A stretch of 32,693 nucleotides of DNA from Alphaproteobacteria bacterium (GTDB lineage: Bacteria; Pseudomonadota; Alphaproteobacteria; Rhizobiales; Beijerinckiaceae): NCBI GenBank assembly GCA_016869435.1, contig VGEB01000023.1, positions 1 through 32,693 on the forward strand, written 5' to 3'. Every line of letters starts with the position of its first letter. Position 1 is the first letter of the stretch. The notes under the pieces were generated by a model, which was given only the letters and a program-made list of their open reading frames with translations, was not told the DNA's origin and did no database searches. Below are positions 1,963 through 32,693 of this stretch, piece by piece. Made by a program: the position numbers and the translations under genes.

Positions 1963-2853
1963 ATTCGAGCCGAAAATTCACAAGCCGCCGCAGCGCGCGT
2001 CTCGCCGCTGGTCCGGCGCGCGCTCGCCCCTAATCCCGGTCCCTTCACCTACACTGGCACGTGCAGCTATATCGTCGGATCCGGCGACGTGGCGATCATT
2101 GATCCCGGACCTGACGACCCGCGCCACGTTGAAGCGCTGCTCGCGGCGATCAGCAATGAAAAACTACGCTATGTGCTTGTCACCCATACGCACCGCGACC
2201 ACTCTCCGGGGGCGCGCGCACTGAAAGAGGCGACGGGCGCCACGATAACCGGATGCCGGCCCTACGCGCCTTCTGAGTCCAACCGCGTCGGCGGTCCCAA
2301 TCTCGACGCCGCGCATGACTTGGCGTATGCGCCGGATATTGTGCTCAAAGACGGCGACGCGCTCGAAGTGGGCGGCGCGTCGCTAGAGGCTTTGGAAACG
2401 CCAGGGCATACGGCGAACCATCTCTGCTTCGCGCTCGCAGAGGAAGAGGCGCTCTTTACCGGCGACCATGTGATGGCGTGGGCGACGACCGTCATCGCGC
2501 CGCCGGATGGCTCGATGAGCGACTATATGGCGTCGGTCGAGCGGCTGCGCGCGCGCCGCGACAGCGTTTACTGGCCGGGTCATGGCGAACCAATTCGTGA
2601 TCCCCAGCGCTATCTGCGCGCCCTGATACATCACCGGCGCGCGCGAGAAGCTGCGATTCTCCAACGTCTCGAAGCCGGGGACGAGACGATCGCCGAGATC
2701 GTCGCGCACATTTACGAAGGCGTTGACAAGCGCCTCCACTTCGCCGCGGCGATGACGACGCTGGCCCATCTCGAAGATTTAATCTCGCGCGGTCTCGTCG
2801 ATTGTGCGGGAACGCCTGGACTGCAGTCGCGTTTCGGGGGCCGCTGGACTTAA
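1963..2853 (+). CDS. Metallo-beta-lactamase-fold hydrolase (LACTB2-like)
   Basis: The zinc-binding motif THTHRDHSPG (H-x-H-x-D-H) and later metal ligands in TPGHTANH, FTGDHVM and WPGHGEP define an MBL-fold hydrolase. It is followed by a winged-helix-like C-terminal region (about 85 residues), as in the LACTB2/glyoxalase-like subgroup. The first GTG (2089) is too late: codons upstream encode conserved family sequence (PLVRRALAPNPGPFTYTGTC then YIVG). That frame opens only after a TGA at 1921 and contains no ATG, GTG or TTG. An ATT at 1963 has a GAGGG 8 nt upstream and is used here provisionally (296 aa). A one-base frameshift from the ATGs at 1920/1923 is the alternative. The 3' end overlaps the convergent FtsB-like gene by 4 nt. 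The substrate is unknown. Confidence 0.8.
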   Translation: MRAENSQAAAARVSPLVRRALAPNPGPFTYTGTCSYIVGSGDVAIIDPGPDDPRHVEALLAAISNEKLRYVLVTHTHRDHSPGARALKEATGATITGCRPYAPSESNRVGGPNLDAAHDLAYAPDIVLKDGDALEVGGASLEALETPGHTANHLCFALAEEEALFTGDHVMAWATTVIAPPDGSMSDYMASVERLRARRDSVYWPGHGEPIRDPQRYLRALIHHRRAREAAILQRLEAGDETIAEIVAHIYEGVDKRLHFAAAMTTLAHLEDLISRGLVDCAGTPGLQSRFGGRWT

Positions 2854-3191
2854 GGCGCTTCCGACGCCTGCAGAAAGATCACGACGTCGTTTTTGTGCAC
2901 GCGGCCCAGCCGCTTGCGGGCTTCCTCGTCAAGAATGTCGGCGTCGACGGCATCACCCTTGATGAGCGCCAGACGGCTTTCCCAATGCATGCGTTGAAGC
3001 TTGAGCAGATTGCGCTCCAGGCGCAACTGTTCGAGCTTTTGCTCATATTCTTCGCCGGTCTTCAGCCCGCGCTGACCGTTAACCCCGTGCCAAATGAAGT
3101 AGGCGGCCATGACGCCAGCCGCCGTGTACAGAGCGAGCGGGAGTACGAGCGCGCGGAGAAAAACACGGAGACGATGCATGACCGCCAACAT
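2850..3191 (-). CDS. FtsB/DivIC-family septum formation protein
   Basis: A 113-residue bitopic membrane protein. It has a short cytoplasmic N-terminus, one membrane helix (residues about 13-34, ending AAYFIWHGVNG), then a periplasmic coiled coil (YEQKLEQLRLERNLLKLQ) and a short acidic tail with the motif DILDEEARKRLGRV. This is the layout of FtsB/DivIC, which join FtsL and FtsQ in the divisome. Starts are possible at 3191 or at the fifth codon (3179); neither has a strong Shine-Dalgarno sequence. In many alphaproteobacteria this gene lies by eno and pdhA, but here it sits between an MBL hydrolase gene and a PopZ-family gene. Confidence 0.85.
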   Translation of the reverse strand: MLAVMHRLRVFLRALVLPLALYTAAGVMAAYFIWHGVNGQRGLKTGEEYEQKLEQLRLERNLLKLQRMHWESRLALIKGDAVDADILDEEARKRLGRVHKNDVVIFLQASEAP

Positions 3192-3220
3192 AACTTAGGC
3201 GGGTTTAAGCGCCGTTAAGG

Positions 3221-3862
3221 CTATATCGCTTTTTTGGTTCCAGACCGCGCCAGCCGCTCGATTTCGACACGAACGAGCCGCTCGACCAGCGAGGGCAGAT
3301 TGGCGTCGAGCCATTGCTGCAGCATTGGCCGCAGCATTTCTTGAACGCCGTGATTTAGGATTTCGCTCTCACTAAGCGCCACACTGGCCGCAAGGGCCTG
3401 AAATTGCGACGCGACCGCAGCTGCAGCGTCGGCCGACAGCAGCGACTTCTCGGGCCCGGCGTCGGGGATCCCTATACTCGAATATTGCTGCTCGACCGCG
3501 CTTTTATCATCAATCTCCGCTGGCGCGCCTTCCCTTTTCTGCTCGCTCTCGCGGGCGGCGAAACGCAGCAACCGCGCGTCGCCTGTCTCTAGCTTCTCGC
3601 GACGCGGGTCGAACGCGAGCGATGACGGCGGTTCATCGTCGCGTCGATCAAGCGCGGGCGTGGGATAGGCTTTACCCGCTAATGACGGCGCATCGACATC
3701 CGGGCGAATGCGGCGACGGTCGTCGCCGCGCAAGCCGGGGAGGCCGTCGTCATCTGCGATGATGCGACGGATCGAAGCGAGAATTTCCTCCATGGAGGGC
3801 TCATTCGCGCGCGCTTCGTCCTGGAACGAGTGCGACGGGGCGGATGCGTTCGCTGCGCTCAT
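3221..3862 (-). CDS. PopZ-family polar organizing protein (DUF2497)
   Basis: A protein of about 213 residues if started at the ATG at 3862 (MSAANASAPS). The conserved N-terminal helix SMEEILASIRRIIADDD and the C-terminal block ending LRPMLQQWLDANLPSLVERLVRVEIERLAR are the hallmarks of PopZ/DUF2497. Between them lies an acidic, Pro- and charge-rich disordered linker. In Caulobacter, PopZ forms a polymeric matrix at the poles that tethers the centromere-ParB complex; by family, the same role is likely here. An in-frame ATG at 3928 would add 22 basic residues that do not look conserved. The gene lies directly upstream of the FtsB-like gene on the same strand. Confidence 0.88.
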   Translation of the reverse strand: MSAANASAPSHSFQDEARANEPSMEEILASIRRIIADDDGLPGLRGDDRRRIRPDVDAPSLAGKAYPTPALDRRDDEPPSSLAFDPRREKLETGDARLLRFAARESEQKREGAPAEIDDKSAVEQQYSSIGIPDAGPEKSLLSADAAAAVASQFQALAASVALSESEILNHGVQEMLRPMLQQWLDANLPSLVERLVRVEIERLARSGTKKAI

Positions 3863-4001
3863 GGAATTCTGCCGCTTTGCGCGGAAGGCGCCGCGCATGA
3901 GGGTGGACCGCATCTCTGACCGCGCCAAACCCGCGAATCAATTCGGCCCGAATGAATTCCACACTTTTCGCGCTATGATGTCACCCGCATTCGCGAAATT
4001 C

Positions 4002-5471
4002 TTATCGGCCGTCCGGCGTGTCGAGACCCAACCATTGTTCATGGACCTGATAAAGATGAACGCTCGGATCGTAGACCACGACGGCGAGGTTGATTTCTTG
4101 CGCCGACAAGCGCCCGATCGATCCTAACGCAGCATAGGAAGCAACGACGCGATCGCGCTGGGACGTGACGAGATTGACCCTGGCGTTGAGAAGCGCCTGC
4201 TGCGCATTTAGCACGTCAAGGGTCGTGCGCTGCCCGACGTTGGCCTCCTCCCGCACGCCGGCGAGCGCCGTCTCCGCCGCCTTAACCGCCGCCTGGCCGG
4301 AGATGATCGACGCCTTCGCGGTCTCGAGGAGGCCGTAACTCGAAACGACGCTGGCGCGCACGCTGTCGCGCTGAACATCGGCGTTGAGCCTCGCCTGCCC
4401 GAGCTGTTCCTTTGCCTGTCGAACTGAAGCGTATTCAGAGCCGCCCTGGTAGAGCGGCACGTTCAATTGTCCTATCGCGGAAGCGGTAAATTGTCGGGAG
4501 CCCGGCAGTCCGAGAAATGAATCGAATTGGTTTGAAACCTGGGTATTGACCGAGAGGCTCGGCATCAACGCGCCTTCCGCGACCTTGACGGCGAGTTCGG
4601 CGGCGTCGACCTGATGCAAGGCGGCAGTCACGCCAGGATGCTCAACGAGAGCGACGGCGATCGCCTCCTCCAGCGACTTCGGCAGCAGCGGTTCGAGGCT
4701 GCGCCCAGGCTGCAAATGCTTAGGTTCGCTGCCGATGATTTGGCGATAGTTCGCCATGCTGTTTTTAAGCTGCGCCTGCGCGGCGTAAAATTCGGAGCGG
4801 GCCAGCGCCACGGACGCTTCCGCCTGAGCCACGTCGGTTCGCGTCACCTCACCGACCTGGAAGCGATCGCGCGTCTGCTTGAGCTGCTCCTCCAGAACCG
4901 AAACGTTGTTCTTGCGCAGCGAGACGACCGCGGTGTCGCGCAGCACGTTCATGTATGCGGTCGCGCCGTTCTGAAGAGTCGCCTGTTCAGTCAGACGCAT
5001 TGTCGATCGCGCCGCGAAGACGCCTGATTCCGCCTGCCGCACAGAATTTTCGGTGCGGAAGCCATCGAACAGCGTCTGCGACACGTTCAAAGTCGCGCCG
5101 CGTGGATAGCCAGTGTAGGTGTCCTGAAAATCACCGCTCGCGCCGGAGGCGGCGCCAGCCTGCTGGCTGCTGCTGCCGCCAAACGGTATCTTGATCGCAG
5201 CATATTGGGCGCCGTACTGCGCGGTGATGCTGGCTTTCGGTCGAAGGCCCGCCTTTGCTTTCGGCGCGTCCTCGTCCCGCACGCGCACATTGGCGCGGCT
5301 TTGGTTGAGATCCGGATTGCCGTAATAGGCCCGCGCAAGAGCCGAGAGCAGGGTTTCGGCCGAAGCCTCACCAGGCGAGACGGTGAGGAAGGCAAGCGCC
5401 AAAGCGGCGGACGCGCAGGACAGGAAGTTGGCTGTTCGCCGCTTCCCGAGGCCAAACCCGTCAGTCGCCAT
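4002..5471 (-). CDS. tolC: TolC-family outer membrane channel protein
   Basis: A protein of about 489 residues with a signal peptide (hydrophobic SCASAALALAFLTVSPGEASA, cleaved before ETLLSALARAYYGNP). Two outer-membrane efflux protein repeats follow. Typical motifs include NPDLNQSRANVR near the N-terminus, VRQAESGVFAARSTMRLTEQ and GEVTRTDVAQAEASVALARSE in the first half, and GQRTTLDVLNAQQALLNARVNLVTSQRDRVVASYALG-like sequence in the second. It should form the trimeric outer-membrane and periplasmic tunnel for type I secretion or RND efflux. The ATG at 5471 with GAGGAGAGG upstream is preferred over 5546, because the extra N-terminus would precede the signal peptide. It lies downstream of the pcm-like gene, an arrangement common in Rhizobiales. 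Confidence 0.92.
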   Translation of the reverse strand: MATDGFGLGKRRTANFLSCASAALALAFLTVSPGEASAETLLSALARAYYGNPDLNQSRANVRVRDEDAPKAKAGLRPKASITAQYGAQYAAIKIPFGGSSSQQAGAASGASGDFQDTYTGYPRGATLNVSQTLFDGFRTENSVRQAESGVFAARSTMRLTEQATLQNGATAYMNVLRDTAVVSLRKNNVSVLEEQLKQTRDRFQVGEVTRTDVAQAEASVALARSEFYAAQAQLKNSMANYRQIIGSEPKHLQPGRSLEPLLPKSLEEAIAVALVEHPGVTAALHQVDAAELAVKVAEGALMPSLSVNTQVSNQFDSFLGLPGSRQFTASAIGQLNVPLYQGGSEYASVRQAKEQLGQARLNADVQRDSVRASVVSSYGLLETAKASIISGQAAVKAAETALAGVREEANVGQRTTLDVLNAQQALLNARVNLVTSQRDRVVASYAALGSIGRLSAQEINLAVVVYDPSVHLYQVHEQWLGLDTPDGR

Positions 5472-5496
5472 TGTTCCCCAACCTCTCCTCGCGCGC

Positions 5497-5516
5497 GCGG
5501 CCGCTCTCCGGCCGCG
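5497..5516. repeat. 20-bp GC-rich palindromic repeat, copy 1
   Basis: The hairpin GCGGCCG-ctctc-CGGCCGC plus a final G lies in the tolC leader. It is identical over 20 bp to 5642-5661 inside the end of the pcm-like gene. Confidence 0.5.
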
Positions 5517-5579
5517 GTGAGTCGCTACGATGAACGCTGAATGCAACGCTAGAAATGTGATTGAGGCGAAATGGCGGCG

Positions 5580-6284
5580 CTAAAGGCTAAACGCCGGCGC
5601 CTGAGCGAAACCTTCAAGAACTGGCGCGCTGGCCGAGAAGAGCGGCCGCTCTCCGGCCGCGCGGCCTTCTTGACGCTCGAAGCGCACGACTTGCTGGCCG
5701 GCGCGCGGCTCAGGCCTGACAATCGCAAGCAACCGTCCGTCGGGCGTCAGCTGCTCAAACAAGGCGTCGAGGCCTGCTTGAGCATGTCCCTGGACGATGA
5801 TGACGTCGTAAGGGCCGCCGCTGCGGAAGCCCTTTTCCAGCGGTCCCAGCTCCAGTTGTACGTTTTCGCAGTTCAGCGCGTCGACCCCTGTCCTGGCGCG
5901 CGCATAAAGCTCAGGGTCGCATTCGAGCGCGACGACCTTCTCCGCAAGTCCAGAGAGCAGCGCGGCCGAGTAGCCGGCCCCGCCGATATCGAGCGCCTTT
6001 TCGGTTGCTTTGATCTCGGCCTCCTGGAGCATTCGTGCGAGCACGAGCGGCGGCAGCAGGCTGCGCTTGTGTCCGCCAGCGGATTTCACGCAGACCGCGA
6101 GATCGGAATAGGCGAGCGACGCGAGGGAATCGGGCAGGAAAAGCTCGCGCGGAACGCTGAGAAAGCGTTCCAGCAAGGGCACGTCGGTAACGTCGAAAGG
6201 ACGAAGCTGGCGCTCAACCATGGTGTGCCGGAGCGTCGCCGTCGCCTCACGCGCTTTCGCCACTCGCGTCACCTTGTCCAACAT
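5580..6284 (-). CDS. Divergent protein-L-isoaspartate methyltransferase-like protein
   Basis: A 234-residue protein aligning by eye with the PCMT family: MVERQLRPFDVTDVPLLERFLSVPRELFLP, then AYSDLAV. The family's SAM-binding motif I (usually EIGTGSGY) reads DIGGAGYSA, and the active-site segment around ISQP reads KRSLLPPLVLARM. It may therefore be a non-repairing paralogue of Pcm. Pcm itself methylates isoaspartyl residues of aged proteins using S-adenosylmethionine. The C-terminus contains a copy of a GC-rich 20-bp repeat. The gene is upstream of tolC on the same strand and may be co-transcribed with it. Enzymatic activity is uncertain; family membership is likely. Confidence 0.8.
   Translation of the reverse strand: MLDKVTRVAKAREATATLRHTMVERQLRPFDVTDVPLLERFLSVPRELFLPDSLASLAYSDLAVCVKSAGGHKRSLLPPLVLARMLQEAEIKATEKALDIGGAGYSAALLSGLAEKVVALECDPELYARARTGVDALNCENVQLELGPLEKGFRSGGPYDVIIVQGHAQAGLDALFEQLTPDGRLLAIVRPEPRAGQQVVRFERQEGRAAGERPLFSASAPVLEGFAQAPAFSL
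5642..5661. repeat. 20-bp GC-rich palindromic repeat, copy 2
   Basis: An exact copy of 5497-5516, located within codons near the 3' end of the pcm-like gene and encoding part of its RAAGERPL segment. A third, shorter and imperfect relative is at 10580-10597 inside nadA. Confidence 0.5.
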
Positions 6285-27365: not shown

Positions 27366-27441
27366 GCCGGTTTAGCTCAGCTGGTAGAGCAACTGATTTG
27401 TAATCAGTAGGTCGCGGGTTCGAATCCTGCAACCGGCACCA
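27366..27441 (+). tRNA. tRNA-Thr (TGT)
   Basis: A cloverleaf with acceptor GCCGGTT/AACCGGC and anticodon arm CTGAT-TTGTA-ATCAG giving anticodon TGT. It has a T arm containing GGTTCGAATCC and an encoded CCA at 27439-27441. The CRISPR-Cas locus begins about 340 nt downstream. Confidence 0.97.
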
Positions 27442-27784
27442 AGTAAATCAAATAGTTAGTCTCTTAGCTCTCTTTGGCGCTTAGGTCTTGGTGACCAAAT
27501 GGTGACCACGTTCGGTTCGCGCGTTGCGACCATCTTTGCCGATCCGAAGGGCCTCCTGCACACAGCCGGACGGAGGCCATATCGCGGTGAAATTTCTATC
27601 GATCGCGGCGGGAATGCTCGCAGGAGGCGCCGAGCAAAATGCGAAACGAGCTGTCTCGCTTGGGGACGTGCGTTCCGGGTGCGACCGCAGTGGCGATTTC
27701 GCGATGCGCGCCGCTCGACAGGCGCCCGTCTTTAGGAAATACGGTTCAGCGACCAAACCGATCAGGACGCAATACAGATCGTTG
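27442..27784. other. Intergenic region between tRNA-Thr and the CRISPR locus
   Basis: Apart from a 9-bp direct repeat, TGGTGACCA (27489-27497 and 27500-27508), no gene is visible. Frames on both strands are open but show no family signature or ribosome-binding site. A decayed integrase or att relic is possible because tRNA 3' ends are common integration sites, but I cannot show it. Confidence 0.5.
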
Positions 27785-27880
27785 CAAAAAGGAATCCCCC
27801 CGCCGCGTCGCCGCGACGGGGGTAATCCTTCAGTGATTTCAAAGAAACCACCTTGCCGTGGCTTCCCTTCCGATTTCCCA
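27785..27880 (-). ncRNA. tracrRNA of the type II-C CRISPR system
   Basis: On the minus strand from about 27880 downward, the RNA begins with an anti-repeat (27879-27855). It pairs with the first 25 nt of the crRNA repeat at 24 positions (one A-A mismatch). A hairpin at 27851-27833 follows (GTGGTTTC, UUU loop, GAAATCAC). Then comes a long GC-rich stem-loop (27828-27791) with T5 after it (27790-27786), a textbook intrinsic terminator. This is the anti-repeat, nexus-like and terminator layout of tracrRNA. It guides RNase III processing and Cas9 loading. The 5' end is estimated from a promoter-like sequence, so it may start a few nt earlier. Confidence 0.85.
27855..27879 (-). repeat. Anti-repeat of tracrRNA
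   Basis: 24 of 25 bases match the CRISPR repeat (the A of CCCTACC is T here on the plus strand). Beyond 27880 the similarity ends, so only the 5' 25 nt of the repeat would pair with the tracrRNA. Confidence 0.9.
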
Positions 27881-27885
27881 TCCCA

Positions 27886-27914
27886 ACAAAAGCAGCTTGG
27901 CCATTGCCCGTCAA
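27886..27914 (-). promoter_or_regulatory. Putative tracrRNA promoter
   Basis: On the minus strand, TTGACG (27914-27909) could be the -35. A weak TTTTGT (27891-27886) is 17 bp downstream and would place the start at about 27880. It overlaps a possible divergent cas9 promoter. Confidence 0.4.
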
Positions 27915-27925
27915 TCGGCTTTGAT
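27897..27925 (+). promoter_or_regulatory. Putative cas9 promoter
   Basis: TTGGCC (27897-27902), a 17-bp spacer and TTTGAT (27920-27925) form a weak sigma70-like promoter. It lies 30 bp before cas9 and overlaps the tracrRNA promoter on the other strand. Confidence 0.3.
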
Positions 27926-27955
27926 AGAGTTGTCCACTTTTCACGGAGCTTATTT

Positions 27956-30900
27956 ATGCGTGTCCTGGGGCTGGATGGCGGCATTGCGTCCATAGGATGG
28001 GCGTTCATCGAAATCGAAGAAAACAACGACGGGAAATCAGCGCGCGGCGGGATCATCGACGCCGGAACCTGGATGTTCGACGCGCCGGAGGAAAAGAGCC
28101 AGACGGGGACAAAGCTCAAATCCGAACTGCGCCGGACGTTTCGCGGGCAACGCCGCGTTATTCGACGCCGGCGACAGAGAATGAACGAGGTCCGCCGAAT
28201 TCTTCATCGCCATAGCCTCTTGCCGTCCGCCGAGCGCGATGCGCTGAAGCAGCCGGGATTGGACCCGTGGAAAATCAGGGCCGAGGCGCTCGATCGATTG
28301 CTCAGCCCCGTCGAACTTGCCGTCGCGCTCGGCCACATCGCACGACATCGCGGCTTCAAATCAAACTCCAAGGGTGCCAAATCCACCGACGCAGCGGATG
28401 ACGATTCGAAAAAAATGAAAAAGGCCGCCGCCAGCACGCAAGAAAAACTCGCGCGCTTCGAAACTCCCGCCCGCATGATGTGCGAGGACGAGAGCTTCCT
28501 TGTGCCAGGAACCGATGTGCGCCGTTTCCGCAATCGGGAAGGCGATTACTCGCGCTCGCTCATGCGCGACGATCTCGCGGCGGAGGTTCGCGCCCTGTTT
28601 CGAGCGCAACGCCGATTGCAAGCGGATCACGCGACCAAGGAACTCGAAGATGAGTACATGGATGAAACGCGCGAGAACAGAGCGTTTCATCAACGCCCCC
28701 TGCAAGACAGCGAGAAGCTGGTGGGTCCTTGCCCTTTCGAGCCGGAAGAGAAGCGGTCGCCCAAACGCGGCTATTCTTTCGAATTGTTCCGCTTCCTGTC
28801 GCGCTTGAACCATCTGACCCTGCGGGAAGGAAGGGAAGAGCGGACTCTTACCGTCGATGAAATCAGAACCGCTGCGGCCGATTTCGGCGTAACTGCGAAG
28901 TTCACTTTTGCAGCCTTGCGCAAGAAATTGAGGCTTCCCGAGACTACTGTCTTTGTCGGCGTGAAGACGAACGAAGAGAAGAATGATGTCGTGGCGCGTT
29001 CCAGCGAAGCGGCGGCGGGAACCGCGCGCCTGCGGCGCATCATCGTGGACGCACTCGGCGAACTGGCCTGGGGCGCGCTTGTCAACGCCCCCGAACGTTT
29101 GGACAAGATCGCGGAAATTATCACGTTCCGAAACGACCTCGATCGAATACGGGAAGGTCTGCAAGCAGCTGGCTTCGATGCGGCGCTGATCGAGGCGCTC
29201 GTCAAGGCCGCGGGCAATGGAGCGCTCGATGCCTTCACCGGCGCCGGCCACATCTCGGCGAAGGCCGCGCGCAATATCATTCCCGGTCTGTATAAGGGCC
29301 TCACCTATGACAAAGCCTGTGCGCAAGCGGGCTACGATCACACCGCGAGCCGCGAGCGTAACGCCTTCGATGTGGGCGTCCATGGCAAGGAGGCGCTCAA
29401 GAGAATCCTCCAAGAGGAACGCATTTCGCGCGAACTCGTCGGCAGCCCGACGGCGCGCAAGGCGCTGATCGAAGCGGTCAAGCAGATCAAGGCCGTCATC
29501 GAAAAATACGGCGTTCCCGATCGCGTCCATGTCGAACTGGCGCGCGACGTCGGCAAGTCGATCGACGAGCGCCGTGAAATCCATTTCGGCATCGAGAAGC
29601 GCAACAAGCAAAAGGATAAGCTGAGAGAACTCTTCGAGAGGGAAGTCGGCCGCGCGCCGCAGGACGGCGACCGCGGAAAGGAGGAACTGCTGCGTTTCGA
29701 ATTGTGGAACGAGCAGAAGGGTCGCTGTCTCTATTCCGACGCTTACATCAGCCCGACGCAACTCGTCGCCTCCGACAACTCAGTGCAGGTCGATCACATC
29801 CTGCCATGGAGCCGCTTTGGCGACGATTCTTTCCTCAACAAGACGCTCTGCACGGCGAAGGCCAATCAGGAGAAGAAGGGCCGCACGCCATACGAATGGT
29901 TCAAGACCGACAAAACGGAGGCGGAATGGGACGCTTTCGTCGCGAGGGTTGAATCGATCCAATATATGAAGGGCTTCAAGAAGCGAAACTACAAGCTCAA
30001 GACCGCGGAGGAAGCGGCGGAAAAGTCCCGCAATCGCAATCTCAACGATACACGCTGGACATGTCGGTTACTTGCCGAGGCTCTGAAGCAGCTCTATCCG
30101 GCGAACGAAAAAAACGCGAAAGACGAGGGCGTGCGTCGCATTTTCGCGCGCCCTGGCGCGCTGACCGACCGTTTGCGCCGAGCCTGGGGCCTGCAATGGT
30201 TCAAGAAGAACGAAAAGGGCGAACGCATCCCCGATGACCGCCATCACGCGCTCGACGCGATCATCGTCGCGGCGACGACCGAATCCTTGTTGCAGCGCGC
30301 GACGCGCGAGGTGCAGGAGATCGAACGAAAGAAGGCTCACTACGATCCAGCGAAGAATGGTTACGACTTGATGAAGAACATCACGGCGCCCTGGCCGGAT
30401 TTTCGGGAACAAGCGCTGGAGGCTGTCGAGAAAGTGTTCGTGGCGCGCGCCGAGCGGCGCCGCGCGCGCGGCAAGGCGCATGATGCCACCATCCGCCATA
30501 TCGCGACGCGCGATGGCGAGCAGAAAGCGTACGAGCGCAAGAAGGTTGCCGATCTCAAATTGAGCGATCTAGAAAGGGTGAAGGACGCGGATCGCAACGC
30601 TGCGCTCGTCGAGAGCCTGCGCAAGTGGATCGCGGCGGACAAGCCCAAGGACAATCCGCCGCTCTCGCCCAAGGGCGATCCGATCTCCAAGGTGCGGCTC
30701 GTCACCAAGAACAAGGTGAACATCTCTCTCGATACCGGAAATCCCGACCGCCTAGCGACCGTCGATCGCGGCGAGATGGCGCGGGTGGACGTTTTCCGCA
30801 AGGCGAACAAGAAGGGCAAATACGAATATTATCTCGTGCCTATCTATCCGCACGAAATCGCGACTATGGACGTGCCGCCAATGCGAGCGGTGCAGGGAGG

Positions 30901-31201
30901 CGGCGACGATGATAAGTGGCCAGAAATCGATTCAACATTCGAATTCCTTTGGTCGATAAACCAGCTCTCATTGCTTGAAATTACAAAGCCCGATGGCGAG
31001 GTCGTCCGATCATACTTTCGTAGTCTCGATCGCAATACTGGAGCGCTTACGGTTTCGGATATTTCGAACTCGACAGCGACCAGGAAGGGGATAGGAACCA
31101 GGACACTTCTCGTCTTTAAGAAACTTCATCTTGATCGCCTTGGTCGAATTTTTGAAGTCGAGCGTGAGTTGCGTACATGGCGTGGAAAGGTTTGCACCTG
31201 A
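27956..31201 (+). CDS. cas9: CRISPR-associated endonuclease Cas9, type II-C
   Basis: A 1081-residue compact Cas9, the size expected for type II-C. Motifs in order: RuvC-I LGLDGGIASIGWAF with D7; arginine-rich bridge helix (residues about 60-82, RRTFRGQRRVIRRRRQRMNE); the conserved GHIARHRGFKSNSK; RuvC-II VHVELARD with E527; HNH VQVDHILPWSRFGDDSFLNKT with D613, H614, N628 and N637; RuvC-III DDRHHALDAI with H764 and D767. All catalytic residues are present, so both nuclease lobes should be active. ATG 27956 has CGGAG upstream; the frame is open for another 144 codons upstream, but these lack homology and cross the tracrRNA. It overlaps cas1 by 25 nt. Confidence 0.97.
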   Translation: MRVLGLDGGIASIGWAFIEIEENNDGKSARGGIIDAGTWMFDAPEEKSQTGTKLKSELRRTFRGQRRVIRRRRQRMNEVRRILHRHSLLPSAERDALKQPGLDPWKIRAEALDRLLSPVELAVALGHIARHRGFKSNSKGAKSTDAADDDSKKMKKAAASTQEKLARFETPARMMCEDESFLVPGTDVRRFRNREGDYSRSLMRDDLAAEVRALFRAQRRLQADHATKELEDEYMDETRENRAFHQRPLQDSEKLVGPCPFEPEEKRSPKRGYSFELFRFLSRLNHLTLREGREERTLTVDEIRTAAADFGVTAKFTFAALRKKLRLPETTVFVGVKTNEEKNDVVARSSEAAAGTARLRRIIVDALGELAWGALVNAPERLDKIAEIITFRNDLDRIREGLQAAGFDAALIEALVKAAGNGALDAFTGAGHISAKAARNIIPGLYKGLTYDKACAQAGYDHTASRERNAFDVGVHGKEALKRILQEERISRELVGSPTARKALIEAVKQIKAVIEKYGVPDRVHVELARDVGKSIDERREIHFGIEKRNKQKDKLRELFEREVGRAPQDGDRGKEELLRFELWNEQKGRCLYSDAYISPTQLVASDNSVQVDHILPWSRFGDDSFLNKTLCTAKANQEKKGRTPYEWFKTDKTEAEWDAFVARVESIQYMKGFKKRNYKLKTAEEAAEKSRNRNLNDTRWTCRLLAEALKQLYPANEKNAKDEGVRRIFARPGALTDRLRRAWGLQWFKKNEKGERIPDDRHHALDAIIVAATTESLLQRATREVQEIERKKAHYDPAKNGYDLMKNITAPWPDFREQALEAVEKVFVARAERRRARGKAHDATIRHIATRDGEQKAYERKKVADLKLSDLERVKDADRNAALVESLRKWIAADKPKDNPPLSPKGDPISKVRLVTKNKVNISLDTGNPDRLATVDRGEMARVDVFRKANKKGKYEYYLVPIYPHEIATMDVPPMRAVQGGGDDDKWPEIDSTFEFLWSINQLSLLEITKPDGEVVRSYFRSLDRNTGALTVSDISNSTATRKGIGTRTLLVFKKLHLDRLGRIFEVERELRTWRGKVCT

Positions 31202-32082
31202 GCCGACCGGCACGGCTCAACACCGCCGACGGGCAGATCGTCGTCTCGCAGGACGATGGCGAGGCGCGCGTTCCTTTGGAGGACGTGGCCTATCTGGTGC
31301 TCGACGCGCCGCACGCCACGCTCACCTCGACGTTGCTTTCGGCCTGCATGGAGGCGGGCGTCGTCATCGTTTCCGTCGACGCCCGCCACACGCCGAACGG
31401 CGTCGCCCTGCCCTTTCATTCGCACCATCGGCAGGCGGGCGTCGCCGCTACGCAAGTCGCCCTCGGCGAGCCATTCAAGAAACGATGCTGGCAGCGCGTG
31501 GTCGTCGCCAAGATCGAGAACCAGGCGGCGCATCTCGAAAGCCTGGACCGCGACGCGCAAGCTCTGCGCGCCATGGCGAAGCTCGTCGGCTCCGGCGATC
31601 CCGACAATGTCGAGGCGCGGGCGGCGCGCGAATATTGGCGCGCCCTCTATGAAAATTTCACGCGCGACGACGCGGCCGACCTGCGCAACAAAATGATGAA
31701 TTACGGCTATGCGGTCGCCCGTGCCGGAATCGCCCGCGCGCTTGTGGCGTGTGGCCTTCTACCCGCCTTCGGTCTGCATCACGCGAGCGTGACGAACGCC
31801 TTCAACCTCGCCGACGATATTCTCGAACCCTTTCGCCCCTTCGTGGACGCGATTGCAGCCACGCGCGCGAAGGATCGCGAGAAGACGGACGATCTCACGA
31901 TCGACGACCGCCGCGCCATGGCGGGGGCGCTGCTCGCGAACGCGCGCATTGGAAAGGAAACCGTGAGCCTTCTCGTCGCGAGCGAGAAGGCGGCGGAGAG
32001 CCTCATTCAGGCGATGGAGGGTGCAAGCGCTGCGCTTCTGCGGCTTCCGTCCTTCGTCGCGCCGAAGGGGAGTTCGCCATGA
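31177..32082 (+). CDS. cas1: CRISPR-associated protein Cas1, type II
   Basis: A 301-residue Cas1 integrase subunit that, with Cas2, inserts new spacers. The N-terminal beta domain begins MAWKGLHLSRPARLNTADGQIVV, then YLVLDAPHATLTSTLLSACMEAGVVIVSVD. The catalytic Glu is in NVEARAAREYWRALY, the His in LLPAFGLHHASV, and the Asp in FNLADDILEPFRPFVD, all typical of type II Cas1. It overlaps cas9 by 25 nt and cas2 by 4 nt (ATGA), so the three genes are one tightly coupled operon. Confidence 0.96.
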   Translation: MAWKGLHLSRPARLNTADGQIVVSQDDGEARVPLEDVAYLVLDAPHATLTSTLLSACMEAGVVIVSVDARHTPNGVALPFHSHHRQAGVAATQVALGEPFKKRCWQRVVVAKIENQAAHLESLDRDAQALRAMAKLVGSGDPDNVEARAAREYWRALYENFTRDDAADLRNKMMNYGYAVARAGIARALVACGLLPAFGLHHASVTNAFNLADDILEPFRPFVDAIAATRAKDREKTDDLTIDDRRAMAGALLANARIGKETVSLLVASEKAAESLIQAMEGASAALLRLPSFVAPKGSSP

Positions 32083-32408
32083 AAACCGAGGAGGTTCGCT
32101 ATATGTGGCTCTTCGTTTTCTTCGATCTGCCGGTAAAGACGAAAGTCGAACGGCGCAACGCCACGCGGTTTCGCAATTTCCTCAAGGACGACGGCTTTCT
32201 GATGCTGCAATTGTCCGTCTACGCGCGCGTCATGCGCGGCGAAGAAGCTGTGGAAAAACACCTCGCGCGGGTCACGAAGAACCTTCCGCCCAAGGGGAGC
32301 GTGCGTACATTGAGCGTCACCGAGCGCCAATACGCCCGCATGAAGCTCCTGATCGGCGAATCGACAAAAAATGAAAAAGCCGCTCCCCAACAACTGGTTC
32401 TGCTGTGA
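32079..32408 (+). CDS. cas2: CRISPR-associated endoribonuclease-fold protein Cas2
   Basis: A 109-residue Cas2, the structural partner of Cas1 in spacer acquisition. It starts MKTEEVRYMWLFVFFDLPVKTKVERRNATRFRNFLKDDGFLMLQLSVYARV, where LFVFFDLP carries the conserved Asp and the ferredoxin-like strand. NLPPKGSVRTLSVTERQYARM follows. The start overlaps the cas1 stop (ATGA). A start at the internal Met of YMWLFVFFDLP (32103) would leave only the core, but coupling favours 32079. Its stop lies within a strong hairpin at 32405. Confidence 0.95.
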   Translation: MKTEEVRYMWLFVFFDLPVKTKVERRNATRFRNFLKDDGFLMLQLSVYARVMRGEEAVEKHLARVTKNLPPKGSVRTLSVTERQYARMKLLIGESTKNEKAAPQQLVLL

Positions 32409-32438
32409 TTTTGGCCCCGGCAAGAGGGCGAAAATCAC
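32405..32438. terminator. Strong hairpin between cas2 and the CRISPR array
   Basis: GTGATTTTGGCCC (32405-32417) pairs with GGGCGAAAATCAC (32426-32438), 12 of 13 pairs, with an 8-nt loop. The cas2 TGA stop (32406-32408) is inside the stem. It may stop cas operon transcription, array transcription from the opposite side, or both; the following plus-strand T-run is short (GGCTTTTC). Confidence 0.55.
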
Positions 32439-32466
32439 TGGCTTTTCATTCGTTTGCGCCAGAGCG

Positions 32467-32693
32467 AGCCTACCACAGGGAAATCGGTAGGGAAGCCACG
32501 GCATGGTTGGTCTTTGCGCCGCATGAGCGACGAGCCTACCACAGGGAAATCGGTAGGGAAGCCACGGCGAACAACTTCAAACGCTCAGTCATCGTCGGAG
32601 CCTACCACAGGGAAATCGGTAGGGAAGCCACGGCCGTTCAAGCGTCAGTGAGGTCGACCGCAACAGCCTACCACAGGGAAATCGGTAGGGAAG
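32467..32693 (-). CRISPR. CRISPR array, 36-bp repeats, 30-bp spacers (runs off window)
   Basis: Repeats lie at 32467-32502, 32533-32568, 32599-32634 and a partial one at 32665-32693. The full copies are identical, as is the visible part of the fourth. The three spacers (32503-32532, 32569-32598, 32635-32664) are each 30 bp, as usual for type II. The repeat carries CCTACC and GGTAGG as an inverted repeat. Strand is set by the tracrRNA: crRNA should read on the minus strand, beginning GCCGTGGCTTCCCTACCG. The array continues to the right, so its size and leader end are unknown. Confidence 0.95.

Follow-up and report, generated by a model that had tools for sequence, protein, structure and literature searches.

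A CRISPR-Cas locus of type II-C lies at the end of the window, and it very probably guides Cas9 against phage DNA in a Methylocystis-like alphaproteobacterium. The window is the whole of one contig (G000:C23), 32,693 bp in length, from a fragmented assembly whose 209 contigs total 3.16 Mb. Genes, key residues, repeat, tracrRNA structure and phage matches can all be seen in it. The locus looks intact and, as judged from its sequence, is an ordinary type II-C system with a truncated array. The operon and the stretch that follows it contain:

27956 to 31201, plus strand: cas9, 1081 aa, type II-C
31177 to 32082, plus strand: cas1, 301 aa, type II (NMENI) family
32079 to 32408, plus strand: cas2, 109 aa
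32406 to 32437, strand unassigned: hairpin-forming stretch separating operon from array, its first bases being the cas2 stop codon

The initial annotation had described a single overlapping operon, and the coordinates bear this out, with 25 nt shared by cas9 and cas1 and 4 nt (ATGA) shared by cas1 and cas2. The locus belongs to type II, with its split RuvC and HNH Cas9, on the evidence of family models and conserved residues. Cas9 scores 617 bits against NCBIfam TIGR01865 (cut-off 100) and has the Pfam domains HNH_4 and RuvC_III. Its predicted nuclease residues are D7, E527, H764 and D767 for RuvC and D613, H614 and N637 for HNH. The residues D7, E527, H614, N628, N637, H764 and D767, all of which had been named from the sequence alone, are identical in the eight Cas9 sequences compared, that of the window included, and invariant in a 13-row alignment. 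The type II Cas1 model gives 277 bits (cut-off 120) and the Cas2 model 75.7 bits (cut-off 24.5), both from NCBIfam. PADLOC agrees on the type II Cas1 and Cas2 and reports this Cas9 without a subtype label. Cas1 residues E146, H202 and E217, which we take to be catalytic, fall in stretches aligned to the E. faecalis Cas1 chain 5xvn.

The length of 1081 aa is confirmed and is ordinary for this branch, the PDB chains of Nme1Cas9 and Thermo/GeoCas9 having 1082-1095 aa. Nme1Cas9 followed by Thermo/GeoCas9 are the closest PDB matches by sequence. A fold search with the AlphaFold model of Cas9 places Nme1Cas9 first (TM 0.36-0.40), with Thermo/GeoCas9 also among the best. The model is mediocre (pLDDT 71.8, pTM 0.43), which accounts for the low TM scores, and the fold search adds little to the evidence from sequence.

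Cas9 matches occur in 6 of 39 genomes of the same genus, the window's own included, five of them close (67-100% identity), and in 21 of 298 genomes of the family. The close relatives are in Methylocystis assemblies, at 67-84% identity. The phylogenetic check proposed in the initial annotation was run as a quick maximum likelihood tree of 48 Cas9s, without a II-A or II-B reference and with several long branches flagged. The window groups with G032 and G012, and then with G179, G037, G017 and L007. A set of 10 rows adds G186, L055 and Tistrella mobilis, and a set of 15 rows (SH-aLRT 100) adds Pasteurella, Ilyobacter, Pontibacillus, L018 and L052, so that this Cas9 sits in a Pasteurella-like II-C branch. 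Nitrobacter and Novosphingobium are in a second branch, apart from this one. Neither csn2 nor cas4 is present in the Ilyobacter and Pasteurella stretches, which do have cas1 and cas2. The Pasteurella cas9 lacks an annotation and contains an in-frame stop, and the Pontibacillus stretch has cas9 alone, without cas1 or cas2.

Assignment to II-C is supported by gene content, the Cas1 and Cas2 models, the Cas9 tree and the strand of the tracrRNA. Excerpts of PMC3936727 give the II-C gene set together with transcription of the array in the direction opposite to that of the cas genes. The only cas genes in the window are cas9, cas1 and cas2. The argument made earlier from the lack of csn2 and cas4 holds for the window, where neither is visible, but the stretch past the array is missing. 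Likewise, the genes, tracrRNA and array are present, but the contig ends inside the array and genes beyond it are invisible, so the description of the locus as complete was too strong. It is barely conceivable that the locus is of another type II subtype, II-A or II-B, with its extra gene past the contig end. Such a gene would go unseen, and the tree has no reference from either subtype; against this stand the gene order, the placement of Cas9 in a branch with cas9-cas1-cas2 loci and a tracrRNA opposite to the operon. In addition, of four ORFs tested past the arrays in two relatives, G012 and G179, none matched csn2 or cas4.

The prediction of a tracrRNA is upheld by covariation in nine loci, and its strand, which had not been given, is the minus strand. 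It is found upstream of cas9:

27786 to 27881, minus strand: tracrRNA gene, predicted extent, with antirepeat, nexus hairpin and terminator with T run
27855 to 27879, minus strand: antirepeat, paired with the crRNA repeat at 24 of its 25 nt, with one A-A mismatch
27833 to 27851, minus strand: nexus hairpin of 8-9 bp, with compensatory changes in nine loci
27797 to 27822, minus strand: terminator hairpin of 11 bp, G+C-rich, followed by a T run

The fold of the single sequence is more stable than those of its shuffles (z -5.2, 0 of 200). Across the nine loci, 97.9% of cells in the nexus and terminator helices are paired, compared with 44-54% when the helices are slid. Both sides have changed in 12 of the 22 pairs, a figure that none of 500 shuffles reached; the counts of further pair types were matched by 9 of 500. 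When crRNA and tracrRNA are folded together, the antirepeat is paired over 24 bp around its one A-A mismatch.

Antirepeat and terminator lie on the minus strand, so the direction of the tracrRNA is away from cas9 and that of the crRNAs toward cas2. Transcription of the array is therefore predicted to be opposite to that of the cas operon, from the strand and terminator of the tracrRNA and from the side on which the protospacers share a flank. A duplex does not by itself reveal the strand, since an antirepeat is complementary to either reading, and array and tracrRNA could in principle be transcribed from the plus strand. This is highly improbable. On the minus strand a covarying hairpin and a T-run terminator come after the antirepeat, and the minus-strand repeats end beside the spacer in TGnTAnnnT. 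The four phage sites have their common motif on the 3' side of the minus-strand guide, while on the other side 0 of 8 bases are common to all.

A promoter for the minus-strand tracrRNA is suggested by the sequence TTGAC, seen by eye upstream of the antirepeat in eight of nine loci (TTGAAC in the ninth), with a -10 that is indistinct in several. A sigma-70 scan of 27400-28100 found no promoter-like site, so this promoter stays putative. A tRNA-Thr gene (27366-27441) is located about 345 bp before the 3' end of the tracrRNA. ARAGORN found no tRNA-Thr in the scanned stretches of seven relatives, and the locus is thus not tied to that tRNA.

The array had been reported to follow the operon, and 36-nt repeats are indeed found from 32467, 32533, 32599 and 32665:

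32467 to 32502, minus strand: CRISPR repeat 1, 36 nt; on the crRNA strand GCCGTGGCTTCCCTACCGATTTCCCTGTGGTAGGCT
32503 to 32532, minus strand: spacer 1, 29/30 match to the portal gene of IMGVR_UViG_3300020198_000120
32533 to 32568, minus strand: CRISPR repeat 2, 36 nt
32569 to 32598, minus strand: spacer 2, 26/30 match to a phage-type HNH endonuclease gene (G033:C348)
32599 to 32634, minus strand: CRISPR repeat 3, 36 nt
32635 to 32664, minus strand: spacer 3, without a credible target
32665 to 32693, minus strand: CRISPR repeat 4, 29 nt, then contig end

The three full repeats are identical and the spacers are 30 nt long. Two repeat searches found no further copies on other contigs of the assembly. 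Related arrays have as many as 59 repeats. Read as crRNA, the consensus repeat has TGGTAGGCT at its end in all eight arrays compared and TGGTAGGTT in Tistrella; on the minus strand of the window each repeat ends, beside the spacer, in TGnTAnnnT. This has the shape of an extended -10 and may be a crRNA promoter. Promoters inside the repeats of II-C arrays, and acquisition of spacers at the array's 3' end, are described in the available parts of PMC12080349 and, likewise, in those of PMC12638026, which caution that II-C may comprise subgroups that differ in their acquisition end.

Of the four related arrays with a visible far end, three (G012, G179 and G033) have a degenerate final repeat on the cas-distal side, and L007 does not. 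Two adjacent spacers are common to two assemblies of the same genus, G033 (L145, G033:C49, 1-1786) and G032 (L042, 1-120). They are the most cas-distal on the G032 contig, which is consistent with old spacers being cas-distal and with acquisition next to cas2. A stem that shares the 5' end of the 32406-32437 hairpin is predicted in six of seven related loci (-4.2 to -15.8 kcal/mol). The hairpin is possibly a terminator, perhaps bidirectional, between convergent transcripts, or alternatively a leader element.

Two of the three spacers in the window match phage-type genes. The spacer 1 target agrees at 29 of 30 bases and is on contig G028:C60, apparently the same as IMGVR_UViG_3300020198_000120, which has equal length. 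The site falls within a gene for a portal protein (phrog_21, E 6.6e-82). This links a methanotroph with an uncultivated phage contig. The spacer 2 protospacer (26/30) is in the HNH gene (phrog_333, E 1.2e-8). In arrays of relatives, a G033 spacer has a 28/30 match shortly downstream of a tape-measure gene, and a G032 spacer has a 26/30 match with two neighbouring ORFs that lack a PHROG match.

A total of 169 unique spacers were collected. Of these, 127 were searched against the 39 genomes of the genus, in batches of 38, 55 and 34; 37 were also searched against the 298 family genomes, and 23 from G179 against 10 genomes of its own genus. Sixteen spacers of L007 and two of G186 were outside these genome searches, and one of G012 was included only within a whole-array query. 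Part of the first-look candidates was scored (for example, two per genome in the family set), so spacers without a match are misses rather than absences. Chance was taken to explain the places with 5 mismatches in G291, G124 and G079 and those with 7 in G025, G018 and G019.

Among viral contigs, exact searches with 21-22 nt of the three window spacers gave nothing; the spacer 1 query ended in the mismatched base. A PAM-anchored pattern for spacer 1 found a single contig, apparently G028:C60 again, and that for spacer 2 matched no contig. A candidate contig for spacer 3 from such a pattern was dropped, having 8 mismatches on extension. BLAST against phages with 38 spacers (3 from the window and 35 from G032) and the whole G012 array gave spacer matches at chance level, as did the G012 array against plasmids, where the Tistrella array was recovered.

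Four protospacers with 4 or fewer mismatches belong to the repeat class of the window, those of spacers 1 and 2 and those from G033 and G032, and all four are followed by N4CCA. The sites are few, and two of them carry 4 mismatches. The G033 spacer (G033_24) is classed by repeat sequence, the Cas9 search of G033 having given no match. On the 5' side, 0 of 8 printed bases are common to the four sites. In the G179 class, N4GCA follows three sites with 3 mismatches, two of them independent: two are in the G179 genome (ParB-type and MT-A70 genes) and one is a homologous site in G205. Of four places with exactly 5 mismatches, one fits the motif of its class. The site in G029:C53 (5 mismatches, N4CCA) was kept separate from the four counted sites. 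With random flanks drawn from the same targets, three adjacent unanimous columns appeared for the four sites in 36 of 200000, and two unanimous adjacent columns in 2 of 200000 for seven sites or 28 of 200000 for six, with the homologue removed.

The guide base adjacent to the PAM is mismatched in four of five N4CCA sites (window spacers 1 and 2, G033_24 and L037_10; not L042_34). Phage escape or a quirk of acquisition was considered for this; the sites are too few to decide. Two spacers of G179 match their own genome at 27 of 30 bases (L195 2818 and 9560, G179:C1). One match is in the MT-A70 gene and one in the ParB-type gene, and the last 8 guide bases contain 3 and 2 of the 3 mismatches, respectively. 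These may be self-targets that are tolerated within an integrated element.

The two flanking motifs go with different PAM-interacting domains of Cas9. Over residues 922-1081 the window is 88-90% identical to G032 and G012 and 60-62% to G179 and G037, compared with 80-83% and 76-78% over residues 1-815. D1025 aligns with the PAM-reading H1024 of Nme1Cas9, and G179 and G037 have N at this position. In excerpts of PMC9433092, D at the H1024 position goes with C at PAM position 5, and H or N with a purine; protospacer flanks and the residue at 1025 agree with this rule in both classes. No G037 protospacer was found in the spacer searches. On balance, we lean towards siblings with near-identical repeat and tracrRNA whose PAM-interacting domains have diverged or been exchanged, changing PAM base 5 from C to G (Asp 1025 to Asn). 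The earlier statement that the PAM differs between orthologues holds by inference, for N4CCA here and N4GCA in the sibling. If the reading of the siblings is correct, the one-residue PAM rule of Neisseria-like enzymes extends to enzymes about 30% identical to them, and nature provides two enzymes that differ in PAM yet have compatible guides. The motif N4CCA is itself already known, from ThermoCas9.

A locus that is decaying or inactive and kept by chance is improbable. Only 3 full repeats are seen, and G017, of the same genus, keeps cas9 and tracrRNA with no array or Cas1 match found. However, every reading frame of the window locus is intact, the catalytic residues are conserved and the tracrRNA pairs covary; moreover, the full repeats do not differ from one another, relatives sustain long arrays, and spacer 1 is nearly identical to a known viral contig.

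The G017 case (L039, G017:C225) has features of its own. Its cas9 (2667-5864, minus strand) is 67% identical, with catalytic residues and tracrRNA kept and an antirepeat at 5932 on the plus strand. The search of this 90%-complete assembly for an array and for Cas1 found neither; Cas2 was outside the search. Just beyond cas9 there is a single crRNA handle of 25 nt (2530-2554, plus strand), with 23 of 25 nt kept, and exactly 30 nt before it is TGATAGACT, like the promoter end of a repeat. Counting both strands, the 11.8-kb contig has 4 copies of the pattern TGnTAnnnT. The remaining upstream repeat is hardly recognisable (16/36), and the G017 genome has no match to an 11-nt seed plus N4CC. G017 possibly has an orphan Cas9 that uses a single fixed guide, or else a decaying locus.

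For the locus of the window, a working cycle can be proposed, in which expression, promoters, PAM, cleavage and acquisition end are all deduced from sequence. The plus-strand operon would produce Cas9, Cas1 and Cas2, and a short minus-strand tracrRNA of about 90 nt, made up of antirepeat, nexus hairpin and terminator, would be made upstream of cas9. The crRNAs would be transcribed from the array toward cas2, probably by way of the extended -10 promoter at the 3' end of each repeat. Paired over 24 bp, crRNA and tracrRNA would guide Cas9, which would cut phage DNA beside the PAM 5'-NNNNCC(A)-3', and Cas1-Cas2 would insert new spacers at the cas2-proximal end.

Since Cas9s of such size and subtype are familiar, the locus alters the picture little by itself. 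In practice it could be used as a compact Cas9 with a guide design supported by covariation and a PAM predicted from phage matches and one residue. For comparative work, it belongs to a group of siblings whose PAM and PAM-interacting domain seem to vary in step, with a nearly constant guide RNA. Among the papers listed in literature searches, none is described as about a native Methylocystis Cas9 or about the Tistrella mobilis Cas9 itself, and there is nothing on Methylosinus with type II-C CRISPR-Cas; in the main text of PMC7606464, as far as available, 'Methylo' does not occur.

Among records that carry an organism name, the nearest is that of Methylocystis sp. Bin_68_1 (JALHNQ010000061, L005), which seems to be identical with contig G032:C61. 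Its Cas9 is 82-84% identical, with the same architecture and tracrRNA layout, and it differs in one repeat base, with no common spacer found. The nearest system in a named plasmid record is that of plasmid pTM3 of Tistrella mobilis KA081020-065 (NC_017958), which has 36-nt repeats, a 66-nt period and an antirepeat upstream of cas9 on the opposite strand. It differs at 4 repeat positions and in 55% of aligned Cas9 residues, its Cas9 being 45% identical over its length. Neisseria meningitidis Nme1/Nme2Cas9 are alike in size and are top PDB matches, and they share the II-C gene set and opposite-strand array according to excerpts of PMC3936727; the predicted N4CC resembles the Nme2Cas9 PAM given in excerpts of PMC9433092. 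Identity with Nme1Cas9 is, however, about 30%. ThermoCas9/GeoCas9 come from the thermophile Geobacillus and match nearly in full length (residues 4-1073), at about 28% identity. The titles of PDB entries 9ar4 and 9ar6 give ThermoCas9 bound to NNNNCCA PAM DNA, the same motif as is predicted here.
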